Source of the DNA: Tetradesmus obliquus
Lineage: Eukaryota; Chlorophyta; Chlorophyceae; Sphaeropleales; Scenedesmaceae
DNA: 64,000 bases
Assembly: GCA_030272155.1 (NCBI GenBank)
Contig: CP126192.1
Location: 5,180,501-5,244,500 of the forward strand
Direction: 5' to 3'
Part shown: positions 22,171 to 54,779 of the stretch, piece by piece
Layout of the letters: every line of letters starts with the position of its first letter
How positions within the stretch are numbered: position 1 is the first letter of the stretch
Position numbers and translations under genes: made by a program
The notes under the pieces: model-generated
What the model saw: the letters and a program-made list of their open reading frames with translations, nothing else
What the model was told of the DNA's origin: nothing
Databases searched by the model: none

Positions 22171-22205
<35 letters not shown>

Positions 22206-22679: not shown

Positions 22680-22716
<37 letters not shown>

Positions 22717-23182: not shown

Positions 23183-23215
<33 letters not shown>

Positions 23216-24245
23216 TGGAGCATCAGCAGCTAGAGCATCAGCCGCAGGCGCCGCTGCAGCAGCAGCATCAGCAGCAGGCACCATTACAGCAGCAGCAGCA
23301 GCAGATGGAGCATCAGCAGCTAGAGCAGCAGCCACAGCTCCAGCAGCAGCCGGAGCAGCAGCAGCTGGAGCAGCAACAGGTGCTGGTGCTGCAGCAGCTG
23401 GAGCAGCAGCAGCTAGAGCAGCAGCGGGAGCCAGAGCAGCAGGTGCCGTCGCAGCAGCAGGCGCCGTTGCAGCAGCAGCTGGAGCAGCAGCCACAGCTCC
23501 AGCAGCAACAGCCGGAGCAGCAACAGCCGGAGCAGCAACACCCGGAGCAGCAGCAGCCGGAGCAGCTGCAGCTACAGCAGCAGCCTCAGGGGTCGCTGCA
23601 GCTGCTGCAGCAGCTGGAGCAGGCGCCATTGCAGCAGCAGCTGGAGCTGCAGCAGCAGCAGCTGGAGCTGGAGCAGCAACTAGAGCAGCTGCAAGCGGCA
23701 ATGCAGCAGCAGTTAGAGCAGCAGCAACTGGAGCAGCAGCCACAGCTCCAGCAGCAACAGCCGGAGCAGCAACAGCCGGAGCAGCAGCAGCCAGAGCAGC
23801 AGCAGCCAGAGCAGCAGCAGCCAGAGCAGCTGCAGCTACAGCAGCAGCCTCAGGGGTCGCTGCAGCTGCAGCAGCAGCTGGAGCAGACGCCATTGCAGCA
23901 GCTGGAGCAGCAGCAGCAGCTGGAGCTGGAGCAGCAACTAGAGCAGCTGCAAGCGGCAATGCAGCAGCAGTTAGAGCAGCAGCAGCTGGAGCAGCAGCCA
24001 CAGCTCCCGCCGCAACAGCCAGAGGATCAGCAGCTACAGCTCCAGCAGCAGGGGCCATTGCAGCAGCAGCTGGAGCAGCAGCAGCTAGAGCAGCAGGCGC
24101 AGGGGGTGCTGCTGCTGCAGCAGCAGCAGCAGCAGCAGCAGCAGGCGCCATTGCAGCAGCAGCTGGAGCATCAGCAGCAAGAGCAGCAGCCACAACTCCA
24201 GCAGCAGCAGGAGCAGCAGCAGTTAGAGCAGCAGCCGCAGGGGCC

Positions 24246-24280
<35 letters not shown>

Positions 24281-24714
24281 GGCCATTGCAGCAGCAGCTG
24301 GAGGAGCAGCAGCAGCCGCTGATGCAACAAGCGCTGATGCCTCAGCAGCAGCCGCTGATGCAACAAGTAGCTGCAGCTCTGCCGGACCAGCAGGCATCGC
24401 AGCAGCAGCAGCAGCAAGCAGAGCTTGAGGAGAGCTGGGATGCCGATGAGCTGCTGCCTATCATCCCGCAGTATAGTTGCGGGCGCCGCTGCCGTCGGCC
24501 AAAATGCCAGCAAGACGAGCACGACGCAGAGCAGCAGCAGCAGCATGATGAGGAAGCAGAGGAGCAGCTGCTGAAAAGGCAGCGGCGGGAGGAGCCTTCC
24601 ACAGCAGGCGGTGAGCAGCAAGTAGCGGGTGGAGTAGGGGAAGCGCAGGCAGCAGTGCAGCAGCGGCTGAGGCCGCGGCGGCACTCCCGACAGCCAAGCT
24701 TGAGCCCTGGGGCT

Positions 24715-24752
<38 letters not shown>

Positions 24753-24833
24753 GCAGGACGATGTGGAACACGGTGTAGAGCAGCAGGGTGCAGCAGCAAG
24801 CAGCCGGCCGAGGAGAAAGAGGAAGCAGCTGCC

Positions 24834-24866
<33 letters not shown>

Positions 24867-27377
24867 AGGTGACACAAGCGAAGAGCAGCAGGGTGCAGGC
24901 AGCGGCAGCCGGCAGACAAAGAGGAAACATGCTCCCACCACTGCCGACGAGCCAGCTGGACAGCAAGCAGCAAACTTGACGAAGCGGCAGCAGCAGCGGC
25001 AGCGCCTGCAGGACCTTGCGCTGCAAAACTTTGCTGCTCGCGCTGCGGGTCAGCCTGACAGCAGCAAGCACAGCAGCAGCAGCAACAGCAGCAGCACCGC
25101 CCACGGCAGTTGTGAGGTGGCTCTATGGCTGCCGCAGCTGCTGCAGCAGCAGGGGCTGTATGAGGAGTGCCCCAAGTGCTGCAGGGGCCACTCTGCCAAG
25201 TACTTCAACCTGACTCAGCCCAGTGAGACACACTGTGCTGCATGCATCCCGAGCTGTGCACGTGTCGTGTGCGTTGACGGTACACCTGCAGCACCTGCTG
25301 CCACTGCTGCTGCTGCTGCTGCTGCCGCAGCCGCTGGCAAAGGTGCAGGCGGCAGCGCTGCAGCAGCAGGACGGCAGCTCACCCAGCAGCAGCAACAGCA
25401 GCAGGGTATGGCGCTGCTGCTTGCGCTGTGTCACAGCGGCACTAGGACCAATTTAGCAGCAGCCAACATAAAAGAGCTAGAGCTTTTAGGGGTGGATGCG
25501 TCTGGCATAAAGCAGCGGCCCAGGAGCAACAGGGTGCCATGCGTGCTGCTGCGCCCAAGTGCTGTCAGCTCTGCAGGTGCAGCTGGTGCCTGTGCTGGTT
25601 GCAAAGTGCTGAGTGCAGACAGCAGCAGCGAGCAGCAGTACTTGTACTGCAGCCTGTCATGTAAGATGCAGCAGGCTGGGCTGCAAGCTCTGCAGCAGCA
25701 GCAGCAGCGCTCCAGTGTGGCGCATCAGCCGCTCAGCTGGGACAGCATTGCGTCAAAGCCGCTGTCAGCAAGCAGTGAGAAGCCTCCTGCTGCTGCTGCT
25801 GCTGCTGCTGAGGAGCAGCAGCGGCCCCCAAAGAAGCGTGCGAGCAGCGCGGCTCAGCTGGATGCACCTGAGAACATGCAGCAGCGAAGGCAGAAGCAGC
25901 AGCAGCAGCAGCAGCAGCAGGAGGAGGTTCGCTTCCCTGCGCTGCACCTGTCAGGCCCTCAGGCCAGCTGGAATGTGGCAGCCTGGGGCCACTGGCAGCA
26001 GCAGGGCCTGGCCAGGCTGGCTAGCGTGCCGCCACTACCATGCAGCAGCAGCAAGGAGCAGCAGCAGCAGCAGCAGGGCAAGCGCAGCAGGAGCCGCTCT
26101 GTGTCGCTGCCTGCTCCAGAGCAGCAGGGCGAGTGTGCCCAGCAGCAACAGGAGCAGCAGCAGCTGCAGCAGGCAGAGGTGCTGCAGCAGCTGTATGCAG
26201 ATGATGCTGAAGCACAGGAGCGACAGGAGCCGCCGCGGCAGCAGCAGCAGCAGCTAGCCGTACAGCAAGCTGACTTGCAGGTGGCTAGTAGGGAAGCAAC
26301 AGCCGCCACTGCAGCCGCCGCAGCAGCAGCAGCTGTTGTTGTTGGCGGTGTAGATGCTGCCGCAGCCCCACCAGGCCCAACTGTGATAAGAAGTGCAGCC
26401 GTGTTACCAGATGCTGCGTCTGCAGGAGCAGCAGCAGCAGCAGCAGCAGCTGTGAACGAGCTTGGGTGTGCAGGTGGCCTGGGGCCCGAACCGGCAGCAG
26501 CACTAGAGTGCAGTGAGCTGCCAGCATCTGCAGACGACGCTGCAGCCGCTGCTGATGTTGCGGCTGCTGCTGAACCTGCAGCGGAAGCTGCTGACAAAGT
26601 AGCAGCTGAGAGCACTGCAGCAGCAGCAGAAGCAGCAGCAACCAGGAGGTCGGCTACTCCTGCTACACCTGCTGCTGCAGACAAAGCATCACAAGGTCAG
26701 CTGCAGCCTAGCCAGCAGCAGCAGCAGCAGCAGGATGCCGGCCCCCAGCCTGCCACTGCTGTGCTACTGCTGCTGCACCAGCCCGGCTGCATCAACGCAG
26801 CAGTCTGGGACGCCTGGATAGCTGCACACCCGAATGCCTCTGACGTGCAGCTCTTCTGCCACGTCAAAAAGGGAGTGAGTTTGAGCGCGCGGCGCATGTC
26901 TGGGGCGCAGCTGGTGAAGCAGCGCATGCTGGACACACGCGTCAACGCGGAGTGGGGCAACACGTCACTCGTGGAGGTGCGTGCGCCTGGTGCTGCGGCG
27001 GGCAGGATGCAGATGACACTGCTGCAGCCGTAAACATGCGTCTGTGGTTGTGGACATAGACGTTGGGCTGCACCTTGCAAGCCAGTGTGATCAGCTGCTT
27101 GGCGTGCAGGTTGGCATGAGTCCTTGCTACAGCCATGTACGCTGCGCGGTGTTTGGAGCCGCTTGCGGGGTGCGATGACAACAGTGCTATCACTGCTTGC
27201 TGTTGCACTGCTGCTGCTGCGCAGGCGTTCCTGGACAGCATGGCTGAGATCCTGCAGCGCTGCAACGTCAGCAGCAGCAGCAGCAGCAGCAGCTTGCAGG
27301 ATGCTGAAGGTGCAGCAGAAGCTGTAGATGACGCTGTCGCAGCCAGTGGTGCAGCTGGTGATGAGGCTAATAGAGCA

Positions 27378-27412
<35 letters not shown>

Positions 27413-30044
27413 TGCGGCGGCAGCACCAGCACCGGTCGGCACCTCAAGCAGCAGTGCTGCAGCAAGCAGCAGTGCACTTGGCGCAGCAGGAGCAGCAGAG
27501 GCAGCGGCTGATGCCCTCCCAGGTGATGCTGCTTTCTTTATGGGCCCTGCAGCAGCTGTGGCCGGCCCAGCTGACAGTGAGCAACAGCAGCGCAAGCCAA
27601 ACAGCAGCAGCAGCGCAGCAGGGCGTGAGGCTGAGACTGCCTCCGCTGCTGAGCCAAGCTCAGCCAGCCAGCCTGCTTCTGTCTCTGCTGCTGCTGCCTT
27701 GACGAGCTCCTTTGCCAGCACACCTTCGCGCCCTGGCCGCGCTGCAGACACACCTGCTCCCACCACAGCCGGCAGCAGCAAAGCTACTGCTGCTGCTGCT
27801 GCTGCTGAGGCTGCATGCCTGCAGCCTGGAGGCCTGCGGCACATCGTGCTGTCCAGTGGGCATGATATCCCGCTGCAGCTGCTGCCTGCGGGGCACCTGC
27901 CTGCTGGCGTGACGATGTACGGCTCGTACGACTACGGCGCTGACGACACGGCTGCGCTGCAGGTGCGGCAGCGTGAACAGATTGCCATGGCCCTTTGTTG
28001 ATTGGCTGTAGAGTCAATCTTGGTGTGCGCAAAAGCCATGATTTTGGCCGCACTTATCAGACATCAGCAGGGGGCTGCAGAACCCTAGGCTGTGCCTACA
28101 ACCTGCAAACTCAGCGCAGGCGCTACAACATGCATGGGTTAGCTCATGGCAGCGTGCAAGGCCCTGGCAACCCCAGCGCAGCTGTCCACAGACCCAAAGT
28201 GATGTGCGCACTCCACCATGTGCTCCAACCCATCCTGCTCAGGCGGTGATGTGCCGCAGCTTGCATGGCCCTCGCAATCGCAGCACAGCTCTCGCCTGAC
28301 TTTCTGCTGCTGCCGTGTGCCTCATGCAACTTCCACAGGCTGTGATGTATCGCGGCATGCTTGATGCGGGCTTTGCTGCTGACGAGGCGCGCGCCTGGGC
28401 GGGCAGCCTGGTCCCGCACCACCAGTGGCTGATTGTGAGCGTGGAGCACGCGCTGGTGCTGGTGGCGCTGCGGGACAAGATCCTGCAGGTCGGTCTGGTT
28501 GGCTGTGTGGCTGGGTGCTTGCATGGTGTTTGCAGAAACTGAGTTGAAGGGAATGGCAGTCGTCTGCTTGCAGGCTGGGGCTGTGCTGGTGGCGCTGCGG
28601 GACAAGATCCTGCAGGTGACTGGCTGGCTGGGTAGATTGGTGTTTGCAGGATGCTTGCAGATAGATTGTGAGCTCGTTGGAGTGCACAGCAGCCGTCCTG
28701 CTCTCATGCTGGGGCTCTGCTGGTAGCGTATGAAGAGTGTGGTGAAGGCCAGTTGCGCCTGGCATGTGCCTGCTGTGTGCTGCTGCTGTAGGTGGCCAAG
28801 GCTGTGCACAAGGCGTGGTCAGAGCAGGAGTGCGGCATCGCTGCTGATGAGTACATCATCCTCACCGCGCTGCGCTGGGCTGGCTGCATCCGCGGCCTGC
28901 AGAAAGTCAAGTGAGTGAGCTGTGTGAGCGTTGCATGCTGAGCCAGTCAGTGCCAGTCACCAACACTTGAAGGGGCGCATCAGGCTGCAATGTCAGTGCT
29001 GTCAATGCTAATGCTGACTGTGCGTATGCACCTGCCGCATGGCAAACATGCGCCTAGGCTGTGCCTTTGCGTTGCGGGCGTCCTGTTGTGGGCGCATGCC
29101 GTGAGTGCTGATACCACGCGCCCGCGCCAACTTGTGTGCGTGCTGCAGGTGGCTCACGCAGCACTGGCGCCAGAAGCTGCAGCCAGGCACAGCAGCGAAC
29201 TGCTGTCCAACGCAGGTCATCTACCCTCTGCCCAGTGGCTGGACTGTGCTAGAGGGGCGCCTGCAGCTGCCTGCTGCTGCAGCAGCGTCTGCGGCAGCAG
29301 CGGCCGGCAAGGCTGCTGGCAGCAGCAGCACCAGGGGCAGCAGGGCTGGCAGCCCGGAGCAGCAGCAGCAGGGCTTGACGCTTGAGGAGTTCCATGAGCT
29401 GCAGGTGGCTGCATCTGATGCTGCCAAGCACCCTGTGACCTGGCGCAGCATGCAGGAGAAGGTGTGGTGCGAGGTGGGTGGCATGGCACACTATCCTGCA
29501 GCTGCAGCTGCAAACAGGCCCAGGCGTGACGTGCGCAGTTTTCCACAGTTGTGGCTGCACTGGTAGGGATCAGCTGCTGCTTGATGCTGTCTACGTGGCT
29601 TGCAGGACACGGGTAGCTGCTTTGTCTGATGTGATGCAGACTCTGCATCGGATAGCTGCTGCTTTGTGTTTGTATCACTCGAGATAAGGAGGTTAGCTGT
29701 CAGGAAGTCAACTGCAATACATGCAAGCTGGCGCAGCTGCCTTTGACACCCTGTGCTGCTGCTGCCTCGACTGCTGCTGCTGGCAGGATGAGCGCCACGG
29801 GCGGATGCTGGCCATTTCGCTGTCGCTGCGGCAACTGCTGGCCATGGCTTCTCAGCGGCGTGCGCTGCTGCTGCGCAAAGTGGACATGCGGTCCAGCTGT
29901 AGCAGCACAGAGGAGCACGCAGCTGGCAGCCGCAAGACGCAGGAGCAGCAGCTGCTGGAGCTGCTTGCGCAGATGTGGCTGGGCAATGCTCCCAAGTTGA
30001 CCAGCTACAAGGAGGTGTTGATCTTCGACAAGGAGGCGCATTAA
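19843..30044 (+). CDS. Giant polyglutamine protein with PLATZ-like zinc finger and Core-2/I-branching glycosyltransferase domain
   Basis: Model exons: 19843-26976, 27225-27962, 28339-28488, 28792-28910, 29149-29473, 29787-30044 (phases agree; about 2900 residues). Residues 1-1520 are mostly Q with periodic repeats such as HNMELQLQQVQ. Basic patches KRQRRE and RPRRKRKQ could be nuclear signals. Around residues 1755-1945, WLPQLLQQQGLYEECPKC, a second Cys cluster (HCAACIPSC), VLLRPS, CAGCKVLS and YLYCSLSCK follow the order of PLATZ zinc-binding domains. After an Ala/Gln linker, WDAWIAAHP, LFCHV, NAEWGNTSLVEA, LRHIVLSSGHDIPLQLLP, HHQWLIVS, CGIAADEYIILTAL and KWLTQHW match the core of the Branch family (Golgi UDP-sugar transferases). 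No signal anchor is visible, which is odd for a Golgi enzyme. The two halves may be two genes with an unrecognised start, since CAG repeats keep every frame open. Confidence 0.7.
28574..28615 (+). repeat. 42-bp copy of an exon end with its own acceptor and donor
   Basis: It repeats the end of exon 28339-28488 (VLVALRDKILQ plus the CAG donor edge) downstream in the intron. It is flanked by TTGCAG on the left and GTGACT on the right, has length 42 and phase 0 at both ends, and would add AGAVLVALRDKILQ if spliced in. It may be a cassette exon. Confidence 0.75.
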
Positions 30045-30594
30045 CCGCAGCATTTAGTAGTTCTGACCAAGAGTCAACATCGCGGTTGTGCACGTCAGCA
30101 ACAGGGACAGAATCGTCCTTGCAGACGTGTTTGCAGGATGGTTCCTTGGGTTCAGGTCTGGTTGTTTTGACTGCGCATGTAACACATCTAAGCGCGTCAG
30201 CCCATTACGGCTTATTGATTAAGGGTGCAGCGTTATCACTGTAAGCTACTGCACCGGGTGGATTCGGTGCAGGCACAGACAACAGCTCTGTCATTGTACG
30301 CAGTACTAGTTGCTCAGTTGATCGTCTGCCACGCCACGTCTTCTGCGCTTTGCTATAGCACTATCAGAACAGTGTACCAGTCTGCAGACTTCCTTCCATC
30401 AACTACTTCTCGGCTGAGTCTTTGCAACACTGTGGACGTTGCAACCGATATGAACCGGCTGTAGCCGATTTGGCAGCACTCGCAGGGATAGTCAATTAGC
30501 CGATTTGTAGTAGGCTGCAACATATCTGCGTAATCGACTGCGCAAGAGGTCTGGGTTCTGAGTGAACAGCAGGGGCTTGCTCACGTTGGAGTGA
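30045..30594. other. Intergenic; candidate poly(A) signals
   Basis: No gene is seen. TGTAA at 30179-30183 and 30240-30244 are candidate poly(A) signals for the upstream gene, 135-200 bases after its stop codon. Confidence 0.5.
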
Positions 30595-33500
30595 ATGGAT
30601 GCCCACGGGCAGACCAGGCGCACCCGGCGGAGATGGTTCGAGCCAGCTAGATCAGGTACTGAGCCTTTCAACCCAGCACCTGTGGTACACCGCTGTTGGC
30701 TGCTGTCTTTTGCACCCACTCAACCGCTCTCCTGTACTGCCTGCAGATGCAGGAACAGCAACACCAGCGCTGCCAGTGTCATCTCCTGCAAAGCATGCTT
30801 CTGATAATAGCAGTCTGAACAGCTTTTGGGTTGGTCAGCAGCCACCTGCGCCATGGCCCATGCCACCAGCCCAGCCCGCGGAGCAGCAGAATAGCCAGCC
30901 AAGTGCCGCGCAAAACCCGCGCCATGCCAGGCAGGCCAGCGTGCGGCATTCTGCAGCAGGAGTGCTGACCACACGCAGCACAAACAGCAGCAGCAACATC
31001 AACAAGAGGGGCCGCAGCATATCTACAAGGCAGCCATTGGGCGCAACACAGGCTCATGTCTGTGATGAGCGCCGCAGGGATGCGGAAAGACCTGGGCGTG
31101 TGGCAGACCTGAAGCCCCAGCCCCCAGCAGCTGCCCGCAGCCATGCCAACAAGTCAAGGCCTGCGAAGGCCAGCGCAACAGTGAGTGAAAGCTATCGCAG
31201 CTTTGCCTGAACCCTTCGATAAGGTTGCTGGCGGGTGTGGTGCTTGTGGGTGAGTTTCCTGCAAGAGGCATGTCCTGCAACCACAGCTCAACAACCACAC
31301 ATGTGCCACTAAAAACCTGCCAAAAGCCATCTGTGTCATTTTTCTTTGCTCGCTTACTTGCAGGACGCAGCCAGCAAGCTGGACACAGTGCGGCAGCAGT
31401 CTGACCAGCAGCCAAGCAAGGAGCCCTGCAAGGAGGAGCCAGGAGTAGCAGACCAGCTGCCGCATGTTGGAATGCAGGCGCCCCCACGTTACTGCAGCCA
31501 CACAGCAGCTTCAATGGCTCGTGCTAGCAGCAGTGCCCCTGGTGCCAGCAGTGCAGGGACGGTGCCAACGAAGCAGCTGCCCGCAGGAGTAAGCAGGCCC
31601 CGTGCGCTTCCTGCAAGGCCGCTGTCCTGCAGCAGCACAGCAGCAGGCGGTAGGGCCAGCCATGGCAGGGCTGCGGTGCTGCGCAGCACACGCACCACAT
31701 CTGCAGGTGCACGTGCCCCTTGTGCGGGTGCTGAGGCAGGTGGCAGCAGCAGCAAGCTGCACTCGCTGCACGCGCTGCATTCCCTAACACCAGAGCGCAG
31801 CACCTTCAGGTGAGACGAATCACGCTGCAGCAATCAAACACTGCTTTATTGTAGGCAGGTGTAGCGTTTAAGTTGTGAACTCCCTTTGCAGGAACGATCA
31901 GTTACCCCTGATGAGACATGGAATATGCCCTGGGGCTTCTGGCATGCGTAAGCGGCATATGCTGGGTTTCCTGCAAAAGCTTATCTGTCAGGAGCTGAAG
32001 TGGCTTTATTGTTTGACTCTGTCCGCAGGCAACCTTTATTCTCGCCAGACTGCAGTAGCAGCTCTCAAAAGCAGCAGTATGTTGCTGCACTCAAGCTGCT
32101 GCGCCGACAGCAGCATCAAGAGCAGCAGCAGGAGCCACAGCACGCACAGCCAGCAGTTGATTCCTCGTGCAGCAGCAGGTGCAGCAGCAACACGCAGGAG
32201 TTCAGACAGGCCCAGCGCAGAGCGGCTGCTGCAGCAGCTGCAGCCCTTGAAGAGGTGCTGCTGCTGGACAGGTGAGGCTCCGGCTGTCATCAATGTTGAA
32301 CCAGTGTCATATTTGTACTGTGCTCCATGCAAAATGCTGCCGCAGCAAGCAGCACCTGTATGTGAAGACCATCTATAGGAACACGCCATGTGGTCAGTAG
32401 CGCTAGGAATCTTGAGACTGGTGAAACCAGCGTGCCAGGGTGTTAACTGGCCATATGGTCATGGCTTTTGTCAACATCATCTGGGCGCAACTTGCAGCAT
32501 ACTTTGGAGGCGGCAGGCTTCTCTATCTGTTTCTGACGTCTATACTGTGTATGCTGTTGTGCAGGGCTGCTGAGTTCGCTGACCAGTTCCATGAACTGCA
32601 GCAACAAGCAACAACTGCATCACCAGATCAGCAGGTTGCATGTGTCGATGCATTCACAGCCCTCAGCAGCTCATTGCAGCAGCTGATGGCCAAGCAGCAG
32701 CAGCTGTGGCAGCAGCAGCACCAGCAGCAGCAGCCTGAGCAGCGCAGCACACCCGGCAGGGCCCCTTCAGCAGGCGCTGTGCAAGCAGCGTCGCCACTTT
32801 GGTGCAGCGTCACCACCAACGCACTGTTTGACTCCACCCCAGCCAGTGCAGTGGCAGCTGCTGCTCCCTGGTCTCCGGCAACAAGCACTGCAGCAGCTGG
32901 CAGCAGCAGGCTGAGCCCTCTGAAGGCTGCGAAGGAAGCAGCTGCTGCTGGTGCTGGAGCCTGCAGCACAGATGACTACCAGGGTCTGGCTGTAGACTTC
33001 CAGCCCCTGCGTGCCTCACTTGGTGCTGTGAGGGCCTCTCAGCAGCACAGGCTGGCGGCATCACCAGCATCACTGCAGGCAGCTCACGCCCAGCAGCAGC
33101 AGCAGTGCACTGCCAGCCAGCTGCTACGGCAGCTGCAGGAGGAGATGCAGCAGTGGTTTGTGGCGTATGTGGATGAACAGCTGTGCAAGGCACAGGCCCC
33201 TGTCAGCACCCGGGGTGACTGTGTGGAACTGCTCAAGGCGCTCACGCAGGCACAGCAGTGGATCCAGCAGCAGCAAGCGCCTGCTGCTGCTGCTGCCGGC
33301 ACAGGGAGCGGACAGCTGCTAGTGTCTGCAATAGCAGAGGTAGCAGGTGCACCACCCTGCAGCTTGCAGGATGGTGGTGCAGTGAGCAGGAGCAACGGCA
33401 GCAGCGCAGCTGCCATCTGCTCTGCTGGTGGTGCGTCTGAGCGGAGTGGTGTGGCTGCTGCTGCTGGCCACACCACGCCGCCTCCTGCAGCTGCTGCTGG

Positions 33501-43402: not shown

Positions 43403-44960
43403 CAAGCAGGCATATGCGTCGATGCAGGCTGACAACAGTGGTATTGATTGACCGTAGCCATCAGTGACTGCTGTGGCACAGCAACCGCGGCTTCTGCCGT
43501 CAAACCAGCACCGCCATCACCAGCGCCGCCGCCGCTGGCAGCAGCAGCAGTAGGGACGCGTGCTGCGACCAATAGGAAGCTCACCGAAGTAGTCCAGTGC
43601 CGTAGTGTGGTAGTAACCACTGTACAGCTGAAACTGCTGCTCGTACTATAATAGCAGCAGCAGCAGCAGCAGCAAAATGAAGCAAGCAACAGGCAGCTCA
43701 CCGAAGTAGTCCAGTGCCAGGGTGTGCTCGATGCCCTCCTTGGTCACACTGAAGCCCTGGTCCAGGAAGCGGCCCGCGTTGTTGATCAGCAGGCTGATGT
43801 TGGCAGGCATGGCCAGCAGCTCCTTTGCAAGGCCACGCACCTCCGACAGCAGCTCCATGTTGCACAGCTGGCATGGCAATGATGCAGTAGCAGCAGCAGC
43901 AGCAGCAGACACAAGGTGAGGCGCGTACATGTTGTTGTAAGCAGTGTGTGTAGAGATCCACAGCAGGCACCGAACAGGCGGCACCTGTGCTGCGGGCCTT
44001 GTACGTCGGTACGGCTTGCTGCCAACTCGATGCATGCAAGGCCACGGACCTCTGACAGCAGCTCCATGTTGCACAGCTGGCACAGTGAACAGAAATACAG
44101 TGGCAGTGTGGCGGCAGGCATAAGGTGAGGTGGAGACAAGTTGTTGCGCGCTGCCAACGTCATGCATGCAGCATGACATGCTATGCGCCCGTTTTGTCAA
44201 CCACAGCGGTTGGTTGCACACTCGTGTAGATTGAAAATGCACCCATATGTTGCAATGCGCCTTGCATCCATGCCTGCCTTGGTGGTGTGCTCGCCGTTAG
44301 GCAGAATTTCTAGCCGGACTCAGTCATTCAGCGATGACGATGGCTGGCGTTGCCCAGCCGCCAGCCATGACAACGTGTTTAGACCAACCTAGTAGGATGT
44401 ACTACGCAGTATACCAGCCGCCTTGCATGCAAACAACTGTATTGTCTCTTTCAACAACCACGTGGCGTGCTGTTGCTCACCTTGAGGCTGATCTTTGCTC
44501 CAGGCACCTGCTCCTTGAGCTGCGCCACCGCCTCATGGCCGCGATCATCGCTGCGGGCGATGCCAATCACCTGAAGGCGCAGTCAGGGCGGTACATCAGC
44601 AGTAATGCATGCAATCAGGGCTTGATCTCAAGCCGAACAGGCACCAGCAATCTGTTCAAACCTGCCTAAGCGGCATGCGCATGCGTAGCCTGGCAGGTGG
44701 CCTGACAGACTGTGCGTCTTACCGTAGCAACTGCGTCGTTTTTGTGTGTGTTGTTCCTGCAAATGCGAGGCACTTTCGACTTTCTGCTGGCTCACCTCTG
44801 CGCCGTGCTCAAGCAGAGCCTTGGTGGTGTGGTATCCAATGCCACTGTTGAAGCCGCTGACCACTGCCACCTTTCCTGACAGGTCAGGAATGGCAGGGCC
44901 CCGAATCCAGCCCGAGATGGTCTCAATCAGGTTCTGCGGGCTGAGCGGGTAGGGATGCAT
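41795..44960 (-). CDS. Short-chain dehydrogenase/reductase, retinol-dehydrogenase/WWOX-like
   Basis: Seven exons on the minus strand: 44960-44796, 44570-44481, 43867-43702, 43312-43237, 42917-42742, 42496-42396, 42034-41795. All phases agree and give 337 residues, typical for the family. The NAD(P)-binding Rossmann start is GKVAVVSGFNSGIGYHTTKA (TGxxxGIG-type), followed by VIGIAR with the basic residue favouring NADP(H). LLINNAG is the NNAG motif, RIINVCSQAE is the Ser-containing strand, and MPAYGRAKLSLLLF holds the YxxxK catalytic pair. A C-terminal GALSSIYAATHPELSGKGGR is typical of the retinol dehydrogenase/protochlorophyllide-reductase-like subgroup. An in-frame Met at 45113 would add 51 residues, a possible targeting peptide. 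The substrate cannot be told. Confidence 0.9.
43354..43410. repeat. Tetranucleotide microsatellite (AAGC)n/(AGGC)n
   Basis: About 55 bases of AAGC and AGGC repeats inside the third intron region of the dehydrogenase gene, upstream (in gene direction) of exon 43312-43237. Confidence 0.9.
43581..43616 (-). repeat. Copy of the donor edge of dehydrogenase exon 3
   Basis: It repeats 43695-43729 (exon end encoding ALDYFG plus GTGAGCT donor) in the downstream intron, with divergence after about 25 bases. Confidence 0.8.
44032..44072 (-). repeat. Copy of the acceptor edge of dehydrogenase exon 3
   Basis: It repeats the exon 3 start (encoding LCNMELLSEVRGLA) with its CCAGCTG acceptor context, lying upstream of exon 3 in gene direction. 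The flanking intron part including ACAAGGTGAGG-like sequence is also partly shared. Confidence 0.8.
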
Positions 44961-45729
44961 GGCGAATGCGCTTGTTGGGGGTGCTGCCAAGCTGGGCTGC
45001 TGCCTTGGCGTGTTGGACACTGGTAGCTGTACTGCAACTGCCGTCGAATGCTGTGCGCCGCTTGCAATCTGAATCGAGGGATGTGCGTGGTAAAAGTATG
45101 CAGTTGCCGTCACGGACGCAAATGCTCGTGCCCGTTTGGTCGCGGGCGTTATTCCGTTGCGGACGAAGCCCTAGTGTGACTCACTCACAGCTCATTGCCA
45201 CGCACACCTTGATGTGCACAAATTTCCTTCAGGGCTGCCCTGGAAGCCATATTTCGCTTCGCAATCCGTTCGCTGCAGCAGTACCGCAACCGAGAGGCTT
45301 GCCTGGCGTCAAGGGATCTGATCGCTACCTGCAAAACTGCAAGCAGCCGGGACAATACTACAGCGTTATAACCGACGAGAATCAGTCGTAATGAGCAGAT
45401 TAGACGCTGCCCCGGGTAGGACCCTGCAGCTGCAGCTGTTGGTGTACCACAGTTGCTGTCTGCCACAGCTGCATCACACTAGCTGCAACCCAGCCAGGAC
45501 ATGCACGTGCTTTGCAGCTAAGATGCATGTACATAACATCCAATCAACTGGTAAAATTACTGTCTGCCCAAAGCTTGGCTGCCTCACCATCAGTGCAGCT
45601 ACGTTACAAACTGTCATGCTACTGCGTCGCTGCATGCTGATCGAGCATAACACGTGCATTTCTGTGCCTGCTGGCCACGCAATTGTCTCATGATGCTTGC
45701 TCACCTCTGCCCTCGCCCCGCCAGGCGTC
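44961..45729. promoter_or_regulatory. Shared upstream region of two divergent genes
   Basis: The dehydrogenase (-) and the large membrane protein gene (+) start on either side, so this 0.77-kb stretch should hold both promoters. No clear TATA box is seen. Confidence 0.45.
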
Positions 45730-46805
45730 ATGCCTACCACTGGTGGGGCCAGCACCCACCCAGCCATCAAGCCTGGCGCCCTGCAAGGCTACTCTACCAA
45801 GACAGCGCCACCACTTGCAGAGCCTGCAGCAGCAGACGCCTACTCAGGCACAGCTGCAACCTGCGGCACAGCAGCAGCTAACGGCGGCAACAGCGGCAGC
45901 TACAGCTACGAGGGAACCAGCCAGATGACATCATCCAGCAGCAATGCACCGTCCAAGGCCACAACCCCACCAGCAGCAGCCGCGCAAGCAATGCACGAAG
46001 CACCCAACGCAGCGACAGGCGCTGCAGGCGCTGTTGCGGGTGCTGCTGCAGCAGCAGGATCTGCTGTGGCAGGTGCTGTGGGTGGGCTTGTGAGGCGGCC
46101 GCCGCAGCCTGCTGCTGCGCTGATGCACCAGCACCATGACAGGATGGTGGTCTTTCTGGCGAGCCTGGTCACCTACCCCTTCGCTTTCCTGCTGACACAG
46201 GTCGGGGTTCTGCGGCGCGTGTTTGGTGTTTGCTGTGTGATGATGCGGTCTTTGCTGCTCTGCCGTGCACTGCATGCCTGGCAGGCCATGCACACAATCC
46301 AGCAAGTGCATAGTGTTCAAGTTGGTGCTTGCTGTGGCATTCAGCGAAGTTGGGTAGCTATGTGAACCATGTGGCATGTGATCAGCTGAATTTACTATCT
46401 GCCTGCCTACCTGCCGCCGACAGGCTGCTGCTGCTGCTGGTGCTGCTGGGCTGCCCGGGGGCGTGGGTGGCGGCAGCATCGACACGCGCAAGCGCCTGGC
46501 TGACTTCCCTGAGGGGGCAGCCATTGCTGACCTGGAGAGGTGAGGCAGCTTACCATTATCATGTTATTATCAAGCCATAGCTTACATATAGTCGGAGGTG
46601 TGCCCGGTGTAACTTGATCACCATCATTGGTGAAGCAGCCCATGTACGATCTGGTTTGCCTGGTGGGCTGGTGCCATCAGCCAGGTGCCAGTGCCAGTGG
46701 CAGCCCGTGCTTTGGTGCCAATGCCTGACTTGGCAAGGGGAGATCACTGCTAGCACAATGAGATCGGACATGTAGCAGACGTTGCGGCGCATCTTCACTG
46801 ATCGG

Positions 46806-46853
<48 letters not shown>

Positions 46854-49406
46854 AGCTGGTGCCGTGAGCCTGTGTACAGCAGCTGGTGGCGTGAGGTGCT
46901 GGGCAGGGCCCTGCTGCTGCTGAGGGAGCTGGCGCTGACCTACCTGCCCTACGAGGCGTGAGTGGCGATGCTGTATTTTGGGTGAACAGGACAACACGTC
47001 AGCTCTGCTCTGTGCATTGTTAGGGTAGTGCTGGCGCTTGCAAGTTATAGGGGAACACATCGCGCAAAGCAGAGGCACGGGTTCATGCGTGTCAACAAGG
47101 TGTCGTGCATCCAATGCCCTGTCCATGTGTACAAGCCTCATCATAACTGGCTGCAGCCTGTGACGCTGCCTGTATGTGCCTCCTTGCATAGCCCCAGATA
47201 ATCACCTGGCTGCGCTGCGCTGCGCTGCACTCCACTGAATCTGCAGTGTGCAGGCGGCGCTGACGCACCCCATGGTGCTGCGCTTCCTGGGTGTGCCCCT
47301 GGCTGGCATGCCGCCCCTGGCTGAGCTGGTGGAGGGCTTCATGCCACGCGCACAGCAGCTGATGGCTGACGGCGCGCCACACGTGAGGCGGTGGCGATGG
47401 AGTTCAGCCCCCATGCATGGCAATTCATGACAGCAAATGCCAGCGTGATGCACACATGCAGGAGGCGCCCTTGGCCTTCAAATGCAGAATTGCACAGGCA
47501 GAAATGGCTGTGCCAGCTAGTAACCAGGCAGTTTGCAGCGCAAACGTTGCAAGCCCCTCACTCCCTGCTGCTGTACAGCAAACACCTGTGCGCTCCCTGC
47601 CCCTACACCCACCCCACCCAACGCATCAACGTCATCCCATCACGCACTTGTTGCCGCATCATCACTGCCAATTCCTGCCTTACCACTGCCTTATCAATGC
47701 ATCGCCAGGTGGCGCTGGAGGAGCTGCAGCGCCGCGTGCTGCCCAGCGTTGAGGCGCTGAAGGCACTCTGCACCACAAGACATCACCACACTGTACCTGT
47801 GCTGCAGGTGCTAGCAGCAAATTAGCAGTGCTCCCAACTGAGACAAGGCCCTTCACTCTTTGATGCTGTGCGGCACACACCTGCGCACCTTCCTGCACCA
47901 ATTCCGACTCTAACATCCCACCATGCATGTTGCCACTTAATTCTTTCTATGCATGCCCCACCAGGTGGCGCTGGATGAGCTGCAGCGCCGCGTGCTGCCC
48001 AGCGTGGAGGCGCTGAAGGCCAGCCTGGAGGCGCGCCACAGGCTGAGCAGGGGGCCCACGCCACTGGAGCGGCTGGACTGGATCACCAGCATCAGCAGGT
48101 GCGGGCGGGGTGTGTGGCTTGTGGCTTGTGGGGTGTGTGGCTTGGTGCTGTGCAGCTGCAGCGGGGTTGGTTGTGTCGCGGCCATTGTATGAACGCACAA
48201 GCGTCAGCAGGTGCAGCCTTGTACTGGGCGCCGTTAAAAGAAGCAGCTGCAGCTTAGGAGTATGCGGCACATTCTGCTTTAAGCACAGCCAATGAATGTA
48301 TATTGCTACTGCTGATGCTACAACAAGCAGCCGTGCCGCAGCTCGGATTCGTGCTGCAACATCAACTGCAAGAAGCGCCGCACTTCCTGTTGACAAACAG
48401 CTGCAAACATCCCAGCAATGACACAGGCTGGGCATATGCAGCAGCTTCCACTGCTGCGGTTGTCACTGCTGACAGAACGCCGTGCACGCGGCTTTGTGTG
48501 TCCTGCCTGGCTGCCATATCACTCTTCGCATGTCTCCTGCAGGACTGCCTCCTTCTTCTTCTTCTCCTGGCTGCGTGGCCTGGCGCGGCTGTGCACCTAC
48601 ATCAGCAGCATCCTGTCGGTGCTCAGCGGCGCGCTCTCCTTCACGGTGCGTTGGTATAATGCGTCGAGTGAAATCTGAGCTGCATGTGCTGCTGCGGAGT
48701 TCGGGGGCTGAGAGCATTGCGTGCTGCTGCTGCAGCTGCATAGCCAGCGGTATGCAGGCTGTTGCGCATGAGGCATGCAACAGCTGCCAGCACCGTTGGA
48801 TGGATATGCTGCAACATTTCAGTGTGTGCATGCATGGTCTCTCCGCTCTTTGCAGGTGGTCCCCTCCATCATCCTGAGCGCATTCAGCGCTGCCGCGGGC
48901 ATAGGGCAGCTGTTGCTGACAGGCACCGCAGACCTGCTGGAGCCTGCTGTCAACGGCGTGCTGGCCCTCACAGAGACCAGCAAGGACACGGTGGGGCTGC
49001 TGGCTCACACATGCTGTTGTGGGTTGGATTCAATGGCTGGATTTTTAAATGTATCTTTTATAAGCTCTCGTCACTCGGTGCACTGGTTTTGGTTTGGCAA
49101 GACCAGCTGTGAAAGTAGTGTGCCAGCCACGCACATGCTCTGGTGTTGTACCTGCGGCCACGCGCTTTTCCTGCATCTGCTTGTCACACCATCAACTAGG
49201 CAGCCACACAAACCACCGTGGGACTGGCATTGCTGCGCTGCGCTACCTCTTGTTACATATTGCTGTTATGTGGCACCCGCTGTTGTGCAGGCTGCCATCA
49301 TATTGCTGTTATGTGGCACCCGCTGTTGTGCAGGCTGCCATCATGGGTGCCGTCAGCCCCGTGCGCAGCCACACACCCACTGCCGTGCCTTGCTGACTCT
49401 CGCCGC

Positions 49407-49437
<31 letters not shown>

Positions 49438-52400
49438 TGTACAGGCTGCCAGCATGAGCGGTGCCAGCCCTGTGTGCAGCCGCAACCTGCCTCCCGCCAC
49501 AGTGGAGCAGCTGGAGGCCTTCTTCACAGGGCAGCTGGCACAGGTGGGAGGCAGCACATAGCAGCACACCGCACACAAAGTCGTACGAACAGCGCACTTG
49601 GCACCGCTGTCACCGCATCCGAGCATGCAATCTGCCTGCTGCATACATTGTAGGGAGCATGTAGCACAGCAGGAGGCGTGTTGCGCGGCGCCTGTCGATT
49701 TGGAATGTAGCGCGTGATGTCATTGAGTGCATATTGGCAAGATGTGAAAAAAATGCGGTACCAAGCACAACCTGTTTACAGTCAGCCACAGTTACACATG
49801 CTATCGTGTTTGCGCTATTCATAGCAGTCTGCTTGTGCTATCGTGCTCGGCACAATGCCAACGCTGGATTAACACGGTGGAGTTGCCGCCCTCAACCGGT
49901 AGCACCTCGCCTGCATGTCGCCTGCACCGGCACACTGCACACAGTACTGCACACAGCGTGTTGGCCAGGTGTCATGCCGCCTCGCCTGTTGTCATGTGCA
50001 CAGCTGCAGACACCTGGTCATCATGCGGATAGGCTCATTTACAAGGATGTACGGTGTCGCGCCCTGCGGTTTCCCTCCAACCACTCAGCTTCTGCACCCA
50101 CCTCACCGACTCCTCACCCAGCACTGCCACTGCCGCAACCGCTGCTGCTGCTGCTATTGCCAGGTGTCTGGGCTGATCAACCGCCCTGAGATCCCCCGCC
50201 TGGCTGGCGCCAAGCAGCCGCTGCTGGTCAAGGCGTACGACCTGGGGCTGATCGACGCGCTGGGCCGCACCGAGGGCCGCGCAGTGAGGGAGCTGCTGGC
50301 TGCGGCACAGTCACAGGTGTGTTTGGGGGTGGGTGAAGTTGATCGCTGTGGCATGCTTTGCAAGATTGAGCATTGGTGTCATTGTGCTGTGATCTGTGTT
50401 TGGTGTGAATGACGAGGCAGTCACTTCTACCCGGACGTCTGTTACGCCGCTGCTGACCACTTCCCCCACTGCTCTGTATCAATTCCACGCTGACATGCCT
50501 CTCCACTGCGTGCCCTGCTCTTGCGCCCCTGCCCCTCAATCTGTCTCTCTACACAGGGCGTGCTGCACATGCTGCTGCGTGGCGGCAGCCGTGCTGCTGT
50601 GGCTGCTACAGCCTTTGACGTGCCAGGCGTGCTGGCTGCAGCAGATGAGCTGGCCCGGGGCCTGGCTGGCCGGCTGCTGCCTGGCTTTGTTGGGGGCGGC
50701 GGCACGTATGCCCGGCAGCTGTTCAGGAGGGATGGCTTCTTTGCCTACGCTGATGAGCGGCAGGCGCAGGTAGGCAGTCTGCAGGCGTTAGTTTGGCCAG
50801 ATTTATGTGAGCAGTTGGTGATTGTCGGTAGCAAGGAAGGGGCTGCAAGTGACAGCTGTTCAGGAGGGACGGCAGCTTTGCCTACGCAGATAAGCGGCAG
50901 GGCTCAGATGTGGCATGATGTGCAGTCGTTAGTTTGACTGGGCGGTTGACCACTGGCAGCGGTGCATGTGGCGTTCGTGTCGTCAGCGGCAGCTGGGAGC
51001 TGCATACATGCTGATGCTGACCTCATTCAATGCAAGTTGACATGCTGTTGGGCTGCATGTTACATGTGCCTAGGCCAGTGGCACCGCTGCTGTGATGGCT
51101 TGCCCACTGGCCTCGCCTCCCCGCGCAACTTCGCCCTGCCCTGCCCTGCCTGCGCTGCCGCAGATGGCACTGGTACTGCTGTGCCGGCTGCTGTCCTGGC
51201 TGCACCTCGGATCTGTGGTGGCACCCGGCAGTGCAGACTGCCTGCACTTTGTGCTGGTGCTAGGCGAGGCACAGGCAGGCAAGGCCTCACTCTTCCAGCA
51301 GCTGGTGGCAGCACCGCCTAAGTATGCTGGGCAGCTAGGGGGCTCAGGGACAAGTGGCGCTCCTGGGGGCTTGGGCTCTGGAGGTGTGACCAGCAGGAGC
51401 GGTGAGCTCAAGGTGGGTGGCTGCTCAGCTGCACTATCGCTTCCATAGTGACAGACACGTGAGTGCCCAGAGCTCTGCTCTGGCCTCACGGGCAAGGCCC
51501 TAAGGCATTGTGTAGGTGGTTACAACAGTATGTTTGTTCGGTGGGCCACCAAAACCAGCAATTGAGGCCTTCTTCAACCCAGTAAACACAGGGCAGCTAG
51601 GGGGCAGCGGGACCAGTGGGGCCCCTGGGGGGTTCGGCTCTGGAGGAGTGACCAGCAGGAGCGGTGAGCTCAAGGTGGGTGGGTGAGTGGGTGAGTGTGC
51701 ATGTTATTGTATGGTGTTGCGGCTGTGCTGCTCATTGCTCAGGCCTGCCAGCGAAGTGGTCAGGCCCAAACACTTGCCTGCCTGCATGCTGGTATGCTAA
51801 TATGCACGGACGCACCCCTTGAGTATGCGGGGCAGCTGGGGGGCTCAGGGACGAGTGGGGCTCCTGGGGGCTTGGGCTCTGGAGGAGTGACCAGCAGGAG
51901 TGGTAAGCTCAAGGTGGGTGGTCACTCAGCTGCACTATCGCTTGCATAGTGATAGACACGTGAGTGCCCACAGCTCTGCTCTGGCATCATGGGCAAGGCC
52001 CTAAGACATTGTGTAGGTGGTTACAACAGTATGTTTGTTTGGTGGGCAAACAAAACCAGCGATTGAGGCCTTATTTAACCCAGTAAAATCAGGGCAGCTA
52101 GGGGGCTCAGAGACCAGTGGGGCGCCTGGTGGCTTGGGCTCTGGAGGAGTGACCAGCAGGAGTGGTGAGCTCAAGGTGGGTGGGTGAGTGGGTGAGTGTA
52201 TGAGGGTGTATGTTGTTGTGTGATGCTGTGGCTGTGCTGTTCATTGCTTAGGCCTGTAGTTGAGCCTGGACGCTTGCCTGCTTGCTCGCCTGCTTGCCTG
52301 CATGCTGCTATGCTAGTATGCACAAGACACACCCCAGCTGCAACGAGAACCTCCTGGAAAGCTGCTTAACAGCATGGCGTGCTGATGCAGGGAGTGTTCA

Positions 52401-54779
52401 GGCCGACCAGCCAGGCAGTGACCCACTCGCTGGCAGCAGCGGGAGGCGTGCCCGGCTGCCCCCACGGCGACCCACCCGCAGTGGACATGCGGCCGCTGGC
52501 TGACAGCGCCAACGTGTACGTCTGCGTGTTTCCGGGCCTGCACAGCCATGACACTGCTACCAGCCGGCTGTCCAACAGCCTGGCACGCACGCTAGGAGGT
52601 GAGGGGCATACTGATAAGTTTATTGGTTGAGGCTGCTTGCAATGTGTGATGCCACAACGTCGCTGCAGCCTATGCATGTGCGCTGGATGCGCCACTGTCT
52701 GCTAGCTCACAAGCTCTTGCTGATGCCGATGCCACCAATGCTGCAAAATGGTGTCGAATGTGCCGTTGCCTCTGCTGTGGTGTTCCTGGTGCACCCAGGC
52801 AGTGAGCCCGCCCCAGACAAGCTGGCAGTGCTGGCGGGGCCCCTGGCTGCGTAGTGTGTTGCTTTCCATTATCACTGCTTCGAATGCATGTGCACTGAAT
52901 GCGCTACTGCCTGCTAGCTCGAACCGCTGGTACTGCTGCTGCTGCTGCTGCCGATTATGCCGTAGGCTTTGCCTCTGCCGTGGTTTTCCTGGTGCACCCT
53001 GGCAGTGAGCCCGCTCCAGACAAGCTGGCAGTGCTGGCGGGGCCCCTGGCTGCTGGGCGGCAGTGCCTTGTAGCTATCAATGGGCCTGGGCGGGTGAAGA
53101 GCCTGGCTGCTGCTGCTGCTGGCGGTGGTGATGCTGGTGAGGGTGCTACTAGTACTGAGGGTACCGCAGACCTCATGAAGATCAAACTGCCAATGCTACT
53201 CACCATGCGAGAATCAGCCTGTTGCAGAAACAGACGGGGCAGTTATCACCAATGCCGGCAGTCACCGTGCACACACTTGGCGCTAACTATCTCACCAATC
53301 AAATTTGATGGACTACTGATATACTACTACCTGCAGGGCGTGCAGGCGTGGTGCTGCCTGGCTCCTCACTGTACGATCCTTCCCAGCATACATCTTGCTT
53401 CCCCATGTCACCTACCGTCTCAATTTTGTGTACTTGCAGGGGCTGCGCGCGTTGTCCTGCCGGGCGCCTCACTGTAGGGTCCTTCCCAGCTTACACCTTG
53501 CTTTCCCTGGTCACTTGCTCTCCCAACCTTGCACACCTGCAGAGTCTGCCGGCGTTGTGCTGCCTGGCGCCTCACTGTACAATCCTTCCCAGCATACATC
53601 TTGCTTCCCCCTGTCATCTGCTGGCTCAATTTTGTATGTTATTGCAGGGGCTGCAGGCGTCGTGCTGCCTGGCGCCTCACTGTAGGACCTCCCAGCATAC
53701 ACCTTGCTTCCCCCTGCCACCTGCTCGGGCAGTTTTGTATGTTATTGCAGGGTCTGCGGGCGTTGTGCTGCCTGGCGCCTCCACCCCACTGGAGTCGCTG
53801 CGGGGCCGTTTAAGCACCCGCTCACTGTAGGATCCTTCCCAGCAAACTCGTTGCTTCCCCCTGTCACCTGCTGCCACACTTTATAAACCTACAGGGTGTG
53901 CGGGCGTGGTGCTGCCTGGCGCCTCCACCCCGCTGGAGTCGCTGCGGGGCCGTTCAAGCACCCGCTCACTGTAGGATCCTTTGCAGCAAACGCTTTGCTT
54001 CTCCCTGTCACCTGCTGCCTCGATTTTGTATATCATTGCAGGGTCTGCAGGCGTTGTGCTGCCTGGCGCCTCCACCCCTCTGGAGTCGCTGCGGGGCCGC
54101 TGGCAGGCGGCAGCAGAGGCGTTCTGCGCTGGGCGGGGCCTGCCTGCCTCCCTGCTGGGCGTGGTGGTCAGTGAGCTGCAGGAGGAGGCAGAGGTGCCCC
54201 CAGGCGTGCACAAGCTCAAGCAGGTGGGTGGAGTTTATGTAAGGGTCTGCCTCTGGTTTGTTGTGGTGACAGTGTGCCCTGCTGGGTGTGGTGGTCAGTG
54301 AGCTGCAGGAGGAGGCAGAGGTGCCCCCTGGCGTGCACAAGCTGAAGCAGGTGGGTGGGATTCGCGTAAGGGTTTGCCTATGGTTTGATGTGGTGACAAT
54401 GGCCTCGCTGCTGGGCGTGGTGGTCAGTGAGCTGCAGGAGGAGGCCGTGGAGGTGCCCCCGGGCGTGCACAAGCTCAAGCAGGTGGGTGGAACTGGTGTT
54501 AGGGTTTGACAGTTTGCCTGTGGTGTTTTTGATGTGACAACGTGAGAGCAGAGGTCTTTCTGCTGCAGGCTAGCCCTGTGGGATCTGACGACCTTGTATG
54601 TGGTGTTGAATGTCATGCTGCGACACAGGCAGACACAAGAGATCATTGCTGTTGATGTTTGTAGATGGTGTGAGGATGCCTGCTGAATGTGGTGTGCGCT
54701 GTTGCCTTGTTTTTTTACTTCGCTGCAGGTTCAGGACTGGGTGGTGAACACAGTGAGCCACGCCCACCGCATGGTCTGA
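45730..54779 (+). CDS. Fifteen-exon protein with hydrophobic helices and a degenerate P-loop GTPase-like half
   Basis: Exons 45730-46200, 46424-46539, 46880-46957, 47247-47382, 47965-48098, 48543-48645, 48856-48990, 49445-49543, 50164-50316, 50557-50769, 51164-51412, 52391-52598, 52966-53136, 54042-54223, 54729-54779 join in phase to 832 residues. The N terminus is disordered and Ala/Ser-rich; RMVVFLASLVTYPFAFLL is a likely membrane segment, and FFFFSWLRGLARLCTYISSI then ALSFTVVPSIILSAFSAAAG suggest a further hydrophobic hairpin. In exon 11, LVLGEAQAGKASLFQQL resembles a P-loop (GxxxxGK). NVYVCVFPGLHSHD and AVVFLVHPG then CLVAINGPGRV occupy positions of GTPase motifs G3 and G4, but without the canonical DxxG and NKxD residues. 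Nucleotide binding is therefore uncertain. I do not recognise the family. Nearly every exon from 5 on is flanked by tandem copies of its own splice borders. Confidence 0.7.
46807..46853 (+). repeat. (CTG)n tract just upstream of an acceptor
   Basis: About 15 CTG repeats ending in CTGCAG, in the intron before exon 46880. Similar CTG tracts precede acceptors at 3958-3987, 5457-5475, 17908-17934, 18882-18917 and 49409-49438. Confidence 0.9.
47705..47768 (+). repeat. Copy of the acceptor edge of exon 47965-48098
   Basis: The CCAG acceptor and the first 58 or so exon bases (encoding VALEELQRRVLPSVEALKA) repeat here with few changes, then diverge. The copy is upstream of the true exon. Confidence 0.9.
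49259..49390 (+). repeat. Copies of the acceptor edge of exon 49445-49543
   Basis: A 44-bp unit (TGCTGTTATGTGGCACCCGC..GCAGGCTGCCATCAT) occurs twice in tandem. The second runs into sequence resembling the exon start (GCTGCCATCATGGGTGCCGTC against GCTGCCAGCATGAGCGGTGCC). Confidence 0.75.
50858..50940 (+). repeat. Copy of the donor edge of exon 50557-50769
   Basis: It repeats about 75 bases from 50720 (CTGTTCAGGAGGGATGGC.. to CAGGCGTTAGTTTG) with several changes, including loss of the GT donor context. It is downstream of the true donor. Confidence 0.85.
51445..52200 (+). repeat. Three extra copies of the donor edge of exon 51164-51412, within a larger tandem duplication
   Basis: Donor-edge copies (GGGCAGCT.. 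encoding QLGGSGTSGAPGGLGSGG to the donor AAG/GTGGGTGG) lie at about 51590-51680, 51828-51920 and 52095-52185. The stretch from 51446 to about 51680 is repeated at 51950-52190, so a block of about 510 bases was duplicated after the first edge copying. Confidence 0.9.
52768..52855 (+). repeat. Copy of the acceptor edge of exon 52966-53136
   Basis: The exon start encoding SAVVFLVHPGSEPAPDKL and PLAA is repeated here at high identity, upstream of the true exon, ending in a stop (GCGTAG). Confidence 0.9.
53330..53985 (+). repeat. Six tandem copies of the acceptor edge of exon 54042-54223
   Basis: Copies start at about 53336, 53439, 53541, 53647, 53750 and 53894, each preceded by TTGCAG- or ACAG-like acceptors and intron sequence with CCTTCCCAGC. 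The first four carry only about 35 exon bases (units near 103 bp). The last two carry about 60 exon bases (unit near 145 bp), including SLRGR codons. Confidence 0.95.
54275..54490 (+). repeat. Two copies of the donor edge of exon 54042-54223
   Basis: At 54277-54356 and 54406-54488 the exon end (LLGVVVSELQEEAEVPPGV.. KLKQ) with its CAG/GTGGGTGG donor is repeated downstream of the true donor. The last copy has an extra in-frame codon pair. Confidence 0.95.

Follow-up and report, generated by a model that had tools for sequence, protein, structure and literature searches.

The window studied here is a 64,000-nt stretch of the Tetradesmus obliquus genome (C2:5180501-5244500; 104.66 Mb in 17 contigs), with a GC content of about 58% and a CTG/GCA-rich coding style, features suggestive of a green alga. 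On its forward strand, positions 45730-54779 carry a gene, referred to below as the host gene, in which seven exons are accompanied by extra copies of their splice borders lying in the adjoining introns. Genes were predicted with a hidden-Markov gene finder that was written for this work and self-trained on the window and on pieces of contigs C1 and C3; in the host gene, the exon-proximal splice sites were then chosen by hand. The length of the resulting 15-exon model is divisible by three, and it contains no internal stop. The frame also stays open when the copy at 47709 is added, so an open frame cannot exclude every copy, and when left unconstrained the gene finder calls several host-gene copies exons (e.g. 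the 78-nt ones at 51597, 51836 and 52098). No Pfam family matched the host-gene protein at E<=1. The model and its duplicated edges are as follows, with a slash marking the splice border here and below.

45730-54779, forward strand: host gene, 15 exons without the copies, 840 amino acids, ending in a stop codon
Exons 1-8, forward strand: 45730-46200, 46424-46539, 46856-46957, 47247-47382, 47965-48098, 48543-48645, 48856-48990, 49445-49543
Exons 9-15, forward strand: 50164-50316, 50557-50769, 51164-51412, 52391-52598, 52966-53136, 54042-54223, 54729-54779 (stop)
47697-47764, forward strand: acceptor-edge copy, offset 256, 93% identical over 68 nt to the true edge 47953-48020
49256-49344, forward strand: exact 43-nt tandem in an intron, 2.1 copies, units each carrying CAG/GCTGCCAT
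49327-49373, forward strand: acceptor-edge copy, offset 111, 79% over 47 nt to the true edge 49438-49484
50853-50901, forward strand: donor-edge copy, offset 137, GT lost, 90% over 49 nt to the true edge 50716-50764
51329-51423, forward strand: true donor edge O (84 nt of exon and 11 nt of intron), source edge of copies A, B and C
51424-51592, forward strand: inserted dispersed repeat of ~168 nt between O and copy A, 25 matches in the genome, itself and its local duplicate 51925-52093 among them
51591-51685, forward strand: donor-edge copy A, 10 mismatches in 95 to O
51830-51924, forward strand: donor-edge copy B, 9 mismatches in 95 to O
52092-52186, forward strand: donor-edge copy C, 8 mismatches in 95 to O
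51812-52335, forward strand: second-order duplicate of the whole block of O, repeat and A, offset 501, 84.5% over 524 aligned positions
52766-52850, forward strand: acceptor-edge copy, offset 203, AG absent at the aligned position, 95% over 85 nt to the true edge 52969-53053
53329-53996, forward strand: six-unit acceptor array before the true acceptor 54042, exon starts at 53337, 53440, 53543, 53648, 53751 and 53895
54277-54401, forward strand: donor-edge copy 1, a complete tandem unit of 127 nt, 90% over 125 nt to the true edge 54150-54274
54402-54508, forward strand: donor-edge copy 2, 89% over 107 nt; 54409-54533 is the counterpart of the true 54150-54274

Repeat searches recovered extra edge copies at all seven places in the host gene where the original prediction had reported them. 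By coordinates, all seven also obey the rule it had proposed, with acceptor copies upstream and donor copies downstream of the true exon, but this rule turns out to be mostly geometry plus selection. The copies differ in how much of the neighboring intron they share with the true edge. The upstream intron part of the 47697-47764 copy is related to the true flank (Smith-Waterman (SW) z=6.0), as is the intron part of the 52766-52850 copy (z=9.3); that of the 49327-49373 copy is unrelated (z=0.4). The edges O, A, B and C differ from each other to a similar extent (8-13 mismatches in 95); little time therefore probably separated the first copying from the 501-nt duplication. Divergence within the 501-nt block is uneven (14/167 in the repeat, 9/95 in the exon edge and 28/128 aligned positions plus 32 gap columns in the distal intron). 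The exon piece of edge O has four genome matches, all of them local.

Edge copies in the wider sample

The main sample of 264 kb consisted of the window (W, on contig C2) with 100 kb from contig C1 and another 100 kb from contig C3; 30 kb of contig C9, kept out of the training of the gene finder, bring the total to 294 kb or 0.28% of the genome. Within the 264 kb, to which the counts below refer unless stated otherwise, the converged gene finder predicted 33 genes with 413 exons and 381 introns, and the predicted introns have a clear splice consensus (donor AG/GTGnG, acceptor TGCAG/G). Because a BLAST self-comparison missed the exact 43-nt tandem, we wrote a diagonal scan that detects ungapped self-matches scoring at least 20 once simple repeats have been masked. 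The scan found 84, 47 and 160 such matches at offsets of 20-1500 in the window, C1 and C3, respectively (291 in total), as compared with 0, 0 and 1 at control offsets of 20000-21480 and none in any of the three at 30000-31480. The near-empty control offsets exclude chance as the source of the local copies. Tandem arrays are generally prone to assembly or sequencing error; here, however, few copies are identical, most differ by several percent, many have different flanks and comparable copies are present on four contigs of 5.9-11.1 Mb, so that we give this explanation almost no weight.

The 291 segments group into 75 clusters, 44 of which contain a border whose copy lies on the expected side. 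Merging neighboring clusters and keeping those with an offset of at least 90 nt gave 51 loci, of which 45 touch an exon (at least 10 nt of exon), 4 lie only in introns and 2 only in intergenic DNA. Exon-touching loci make up 11 of 16 in the window, 15 of 16 in C1 and 19 of 19 in C3, and 8 of 9 in the C9 piece. At 43 of the 45, at least 30 nt of the exon lie outside all copies, and most of these exons are therefore not merely copies that have been called exons. At least one locus is found in 20 of the 33 predicted genes, and the number per gene, with intron number allowed for, is not significantly uneven (p=0.10). The phenomenon is thus widespread and probably a form of genome turnover, rather than a special property of the host gene, and the process suggested in the original prediction is supported in that edge copies have been added to the introns of many genes. 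Among the 45 exon-touching loci, when only pairs whose other copy is not itself called an exon are considered, copies lie on the correct side only at 13, on both sides at 12 and on the wrong side only at 2, with 18 not scorable. The best copy-to-copy offsets at these loci are 90-156 nt in 27 and 203-279 nt in 15; none falls between 157 and 202, and 3 are larger.

Two further examples lie elsewhere in the window:

4461-5010, forward strand: five-unit array at an exon edge of another gene
5312-5359, forward strand: donor-edge copy, offset 262, 94% over 48 nt to the true edge 5050-5097, with 214 nt of unique sequence between

Copies in the 4461-5010 array differ by ~12 synonymous and ~7 nonsynonymous changes, counted by eye. 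At C3 85357-86682 (L020), about a dozen units of ~120 nt stand at an exon edge, and an 18-nt exon core and the donor motif are best kept. A 36-nt exon end occurs four times at C1 33252-33650 (L005) with 0-1 mismatch, separated by introns that are mostly dissimilar. At C1 10821-11009 (L003), the edge copy is 97% identical over 68 nt with unrelated intron parts; by its motif, this exon may encode part of a pyruvate dehydrogenase E1-alpha. Nested repeats at 11721-13870 of the window, 97-100% alike at offsets of 67-1754, are mostly intergenic and possibly represent a mobile element cluster; a predicted 4.1-kb exon at 21086-25222 is dominated by CAG/GCA repeats (slash here separating the two motifs); and an open frame at 44628-45170 on the minus strand may, again by its motif, be the start of a short-chain dehydrogenase.

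Similarity across the borders and exon bias

We next consider how the similarity between copies is distributed about the splice border. The profile was built from the best four matches per cluster (97 borders from 44 clusters, where some 'true' edges are themselves copies called exons). From the alignments behind the donor-copy listing and the comparison of fillers, both treated below, rows with an identity of 1.00 and 5 or fewer exon nt were excluded as overlapping windows aligned to themselves. On the exon side, mean identity close to the border is about 0.85-0.9; the nearest 5 intron nt have 0.83-0.85, and values of 0.5-0.67 follow farther into the intron. At donors, the 0.85 of these 5 nt gives way to 0.58 and then to about 0.5. 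A fall of this kind would be expected if only the edge and its splice motif were copied, e.g. by template switching in the repair of transcription-linked breaks, so that homology would end at the splice site from birth. Consistent with such border-targeted copying, unrelated intron parts are found at C1:98775 (44 nt, 98%), at C1:10821 and at two of the three copies at C1:33252-33650. Segments at least 95% identical with offsets of at least 90 also fall in exon-touching loci at about 26 of 30 loci (counted from rows, many of which singly pair intron with intron), and the offset filter of at least 90 keeps 45 of 46 exon-touching loci but only 4 of 11 intron-only loci. However, gapped identity at intron positions 10-50 averages 0.61, as compared with 0.40 for unrelated pairs, and many pairs have clear intron homology, indicating that many units are decayed tandem duplications. 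To our knowledge, no mechanism stops at a splice site on DNA. We consider border-targeted copying unlikely, and we judge in the same way the broader proposal that copying which recognizes or is physically tied to borders, for example through breaks or template switching that accompany splicing during transcription, creates copies as an edge plus motif with no intron part and is the chief way in which introns of this lineage grow.

Plain tandem duplication across the border followed by use of the exon-proximal site, as originally proposed, accounts for part of these observations. The open 840-residue frame agrees with it, as do complete tandem units at several loci, where homology extends over the whole unit. 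In local alignments of 27 chosen pairs, intron homology is strong in some and absent in others. Among 44 borders where the exon part is at least 0.96 identical, the intron part is unalignable in 32%, compared with 0.4% of 1138 simulated borders; the 44 are not independent (counted per cluster, with an exon part of at least 0.9, the figure is 7 of 27) and every simulated unit was given at least 50 nt of intron. Similarity therefore stops at the splice site too often for plain tandem duplication to be sufficient, and this model also fails to explain the inserted repeat in the host gene and a chimeric copy described below.

A simpler alternative is that local tandem duplication is entirely random, and that edge copies are those that can still be recognized because the exon is constrained and the intron decays rapidly. 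Near-complete tandem units are indeed spread over introns, intergenic DNA and exons, and the uneven divergence within the 501-nt block would be expected. In a placement test, borders are covered by the top matches in 37 of 66 clusters, as compared with 25.9 +- 3.8 for random placement and a highest value of 41 in 500 placements, an excess that is only moderately significant. To examine the effect of decay, tandem duplications were implanted at random in a simulation that allows decay of the copies and of noncoding DNA but holds the true exon under constraint. The simulated exon share is 0.45-0.52, as compared with the observed 0.88 (45/51), and it rises to 0.64, 0.74, 0.79 and 0.84 when noncoding decay is 2, 4, 8 and 16 times faster. 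Intron parts mismatch 0.95 to 4.5 times as often as exon parts among the copies of 11 of 12 arrays and 13 times as often in one, with gaps not counted and saturation likely in the intron parts. Faster decay at these ratios explains part of the exon excess, but probably not all of it. The position of the loci is thus not independent of exons as random duplication would predict, even though the youngest units are unbiased and the placement test is moderate. Duplications that ignore borders were what the original prediction had named as evidence against itself; in this sample, its expectation holds, with exon contact at 45 of 51 loci and about half in simulation. Together with the C9 loci and the near-identical borders that lack an alignable intron part, these shares make purely random duplication a possible but doubtful explanation.

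The repeat between O and A raises the further possibility that insertion of small mobile elements at exon edges produced the copies as long target-site duplications. The repeat family has 23 matched places beyond the pair in the window, and at one of the fetched copies (L029-L042), L035 at C1:1595637-1596589, the repeat is immediately flanked by the two copies of a 120-nt direct repeat (84%), which by eye appears to cross an exon/donor border. The other 13 of the 14 fetched copies have no flanking direct repeat, and two fillers are unique sequence; these results speak against target duplication by mobile elements as a general rule and leave it highly improbable as an explanation. The remaining fillers have no ends in common, as judged by eye, and match few other places in the 264 kb. 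Matches to the repeat lie mostly about 3.6 kb apart at C7:2766905-2801432, which suggests that the family is also present inside a larger tandem unit. The possibility that the repeat at 51424-51592 is a structured RNA was rejected, since there was no Rfam match at E<=1 in 51300-52300 and the fold z-scores are -1.3 and -0.6.

Fate and origin of the copies

Copies that retain splice signals might be used, either as alternative splice sites or as mini-exons, with the addition of repeated peptides or the triggering of mRNA decay as the outcome. When unconstrained, the gene finder treats many copies as exons, and differences between copies are enriched at silent sites: over the 39 of 75 clusters in which codon positions were counted, 125 of 726 third positions differ, as compared with 42 of 725 and 42 of 729 at the other two. 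Several arrays also have few indels in the exon part (e.g. at 53337-53895, 0 of 15 copy pairs, versus 57 in the intron part). However, GT is kept in 41 of 48 copies and AG in 39 of 49, close to the prediction from overall identity, and the best offsets at the 45 exon-touching loci ignore the reading frame (14, 19 and 12 in the three classes modulo 3). Loss of GT and AG at about the neutral rate and the lack of a frame rule make use of the copies as exons unlikely. In addition, AG is often absent where donor copies begin, as seen by eye in a donor-copy listing drawn up without the two large arrays (W.0 and C3.26), and nonsynonymous differences accumulate near the neutral intron rate. Functional cassette exons had been considered on the basis of an AG at some donor-copy starts and of lengths of 27, 36, 45 and 78 nt, and were dropped in light of the listing, the GT/AG retention and the modulo-3 counts. 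The hallmarks of such exons (a kept frame, GT/AG above neutral and both splice ends) are lacking overall, although single copies may still qualify. The suggestion that the process creates alternative splice sites thus finds no support here; we regard use of the copies as quite unlikely and think that most of them are probably inert.

One copy has probably been altered by exchange with the true exon. The exon part of the C3:47294 copy is identical to the true exon (48/48) and its 3' flank matches that of the middle copy (z=8.0), which itself has 4 mismatches and a gap relative to the true exon. Discordant adjacent segments of this kind are a hallmark of gene conversion, and the chimera points to conversion templated by the exon. 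At C3:44904, there are 0 mismatches to the true exon over 38 nt (with a 1-nt deletion) and no relation in the intron upstream (z=1.9). Codon tests of the differences used 43 pairs, 26 of them strict. In the strict pairs, 60% of the differences between copy and exon are synonymous, versus 43% expected for a neutral copy and an exon that changes only at silent sites (p=0.001). Relative to the neutral rate given by intron parts within the hits, nonsynonymous differences occur at 0.83 (strict pairs) or 0.95 (all pairs); this neutral rate is itself too low because of how the hits were selected. Exchange between diverged haplotypes, rapid silent evolution and partial coding constraint would each be consistent with the silent excess, which is no proof of coding use.

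The explanation that we favor, and to which we give about an even chance, is recurrent local duplication that is filtered by splicing and refreshed by conversion, with an additional bias toward exons. Short segments with exon sequence, usually including a splice border, are doubled nearby, in some cases as complete tandem units and in others with unrelated sequence (once a dispersed repeat) separating the copies, at a distance that is 90-279 nt from copy to copy in 42 of 45 loci. The spliceosome would keep the exon-proximal site, so that the extra edge would become intron, the mRNA would be unchanged and the duplication would survive. The copies would have no coding role of their own and would lengthen the introns. 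The greater likeness of the exon parts could be the sum of three effects: the true exon cannot drift, the copy is sometimes overwritten by conversion and the intron turns over rapidly. An extra bias toward exon-containing segments, acting at birth or by conversion, would be needed to give 45 of 51 loci.

Several results weigh against recurrent duplication with splicing and conversion. All of the gene models are ab initio, and the 294 kb sampled is a small share of the genome (0.28%). A few of the 45 loci (e.g. C3:67418, C3:46399, C1:37914 and W:56158) look less like edge copies than like coding repeats or duplicates of an entire exon. The youngest near-complete tandem units, at 17 loci by row count, comprise 8 in noncoding DNA (all with offsets of 90 or less), 6 at exon borders, 1 touching an exon by 3-4 nt and 2 inside exons; the absence of an exon bias among them speaks against a bias at birth. 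The fillers W:5098-5311 and C1:2010646-2010724 have no other match in the genome, leaving two of the three fillers searched genome-wide without a source. Support for conversion comes from one clear chimera (C3:47294) and one suggestive array, and conversion alone does not predict the synonymous excess.

Relation to known systems

If exon edges are doubled this often, the introns of this lineage would be rich in decoy borders, which would give rise to false exons in automatic annotation. Natural duplications would repeatedly test splice-site choice, and intron length would grow partly by this route. The copies would therefore provide a natural system for the study of spliceosome preference between near-identical borders and of the overwriting of intronic copies by conversion. 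No published account of the pattern was found by title or abstract opening in the open-licence literature.

Tandem duplications generated by repair arise from staggered breaks or paired nicks, and their size and filler are comparable to those of the copies described here; we know of no preference of such events for exon edges. Gao and Lynch reportedly described, in 2009, internal gene duplications that involve exon-intron boundaries. In the genes studied here, by comparison, there are several short copies of partial edges per gene, with the strongest likeness on the exon side.

Introners are dispersed short elements that create introns, mainly in fast-evolving lineages such as green algae, and some families make target duplications of 3-9 bp (PMC9860276). 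One dispersed repeat is present here too, but two of the three fillers searched are not repeats. Rogers and Bendich (2025) describe direct repeats of 4-30 bp (mean 11.4) at intron splice sites, which are thought to flank an inserted intron (PMC11782384). Both kinds of repeat are found at intron-exon borders; those described here are ~27-110 nt copies of one edge and lie inside the adjoining intron.

A further parallel is intron gain by tandem genomic duplication, in which an exon segment containing AGGT is doubled and the duplicated stretch becomes a new intron (PMC3443670; Drosophila cases in PMC2891723). The introns in our sample are not duplicated exonic segments bounded by a doubled AGGT; the copies are inside longer introns and carry an existing border and some flanking intron. 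In contrast to intron gain, an existing border is doubled and the old intron grows, with no new intron formed. What the two share is the local doubling of exon sequence together with its splice signals, resolved by splice-site choice.

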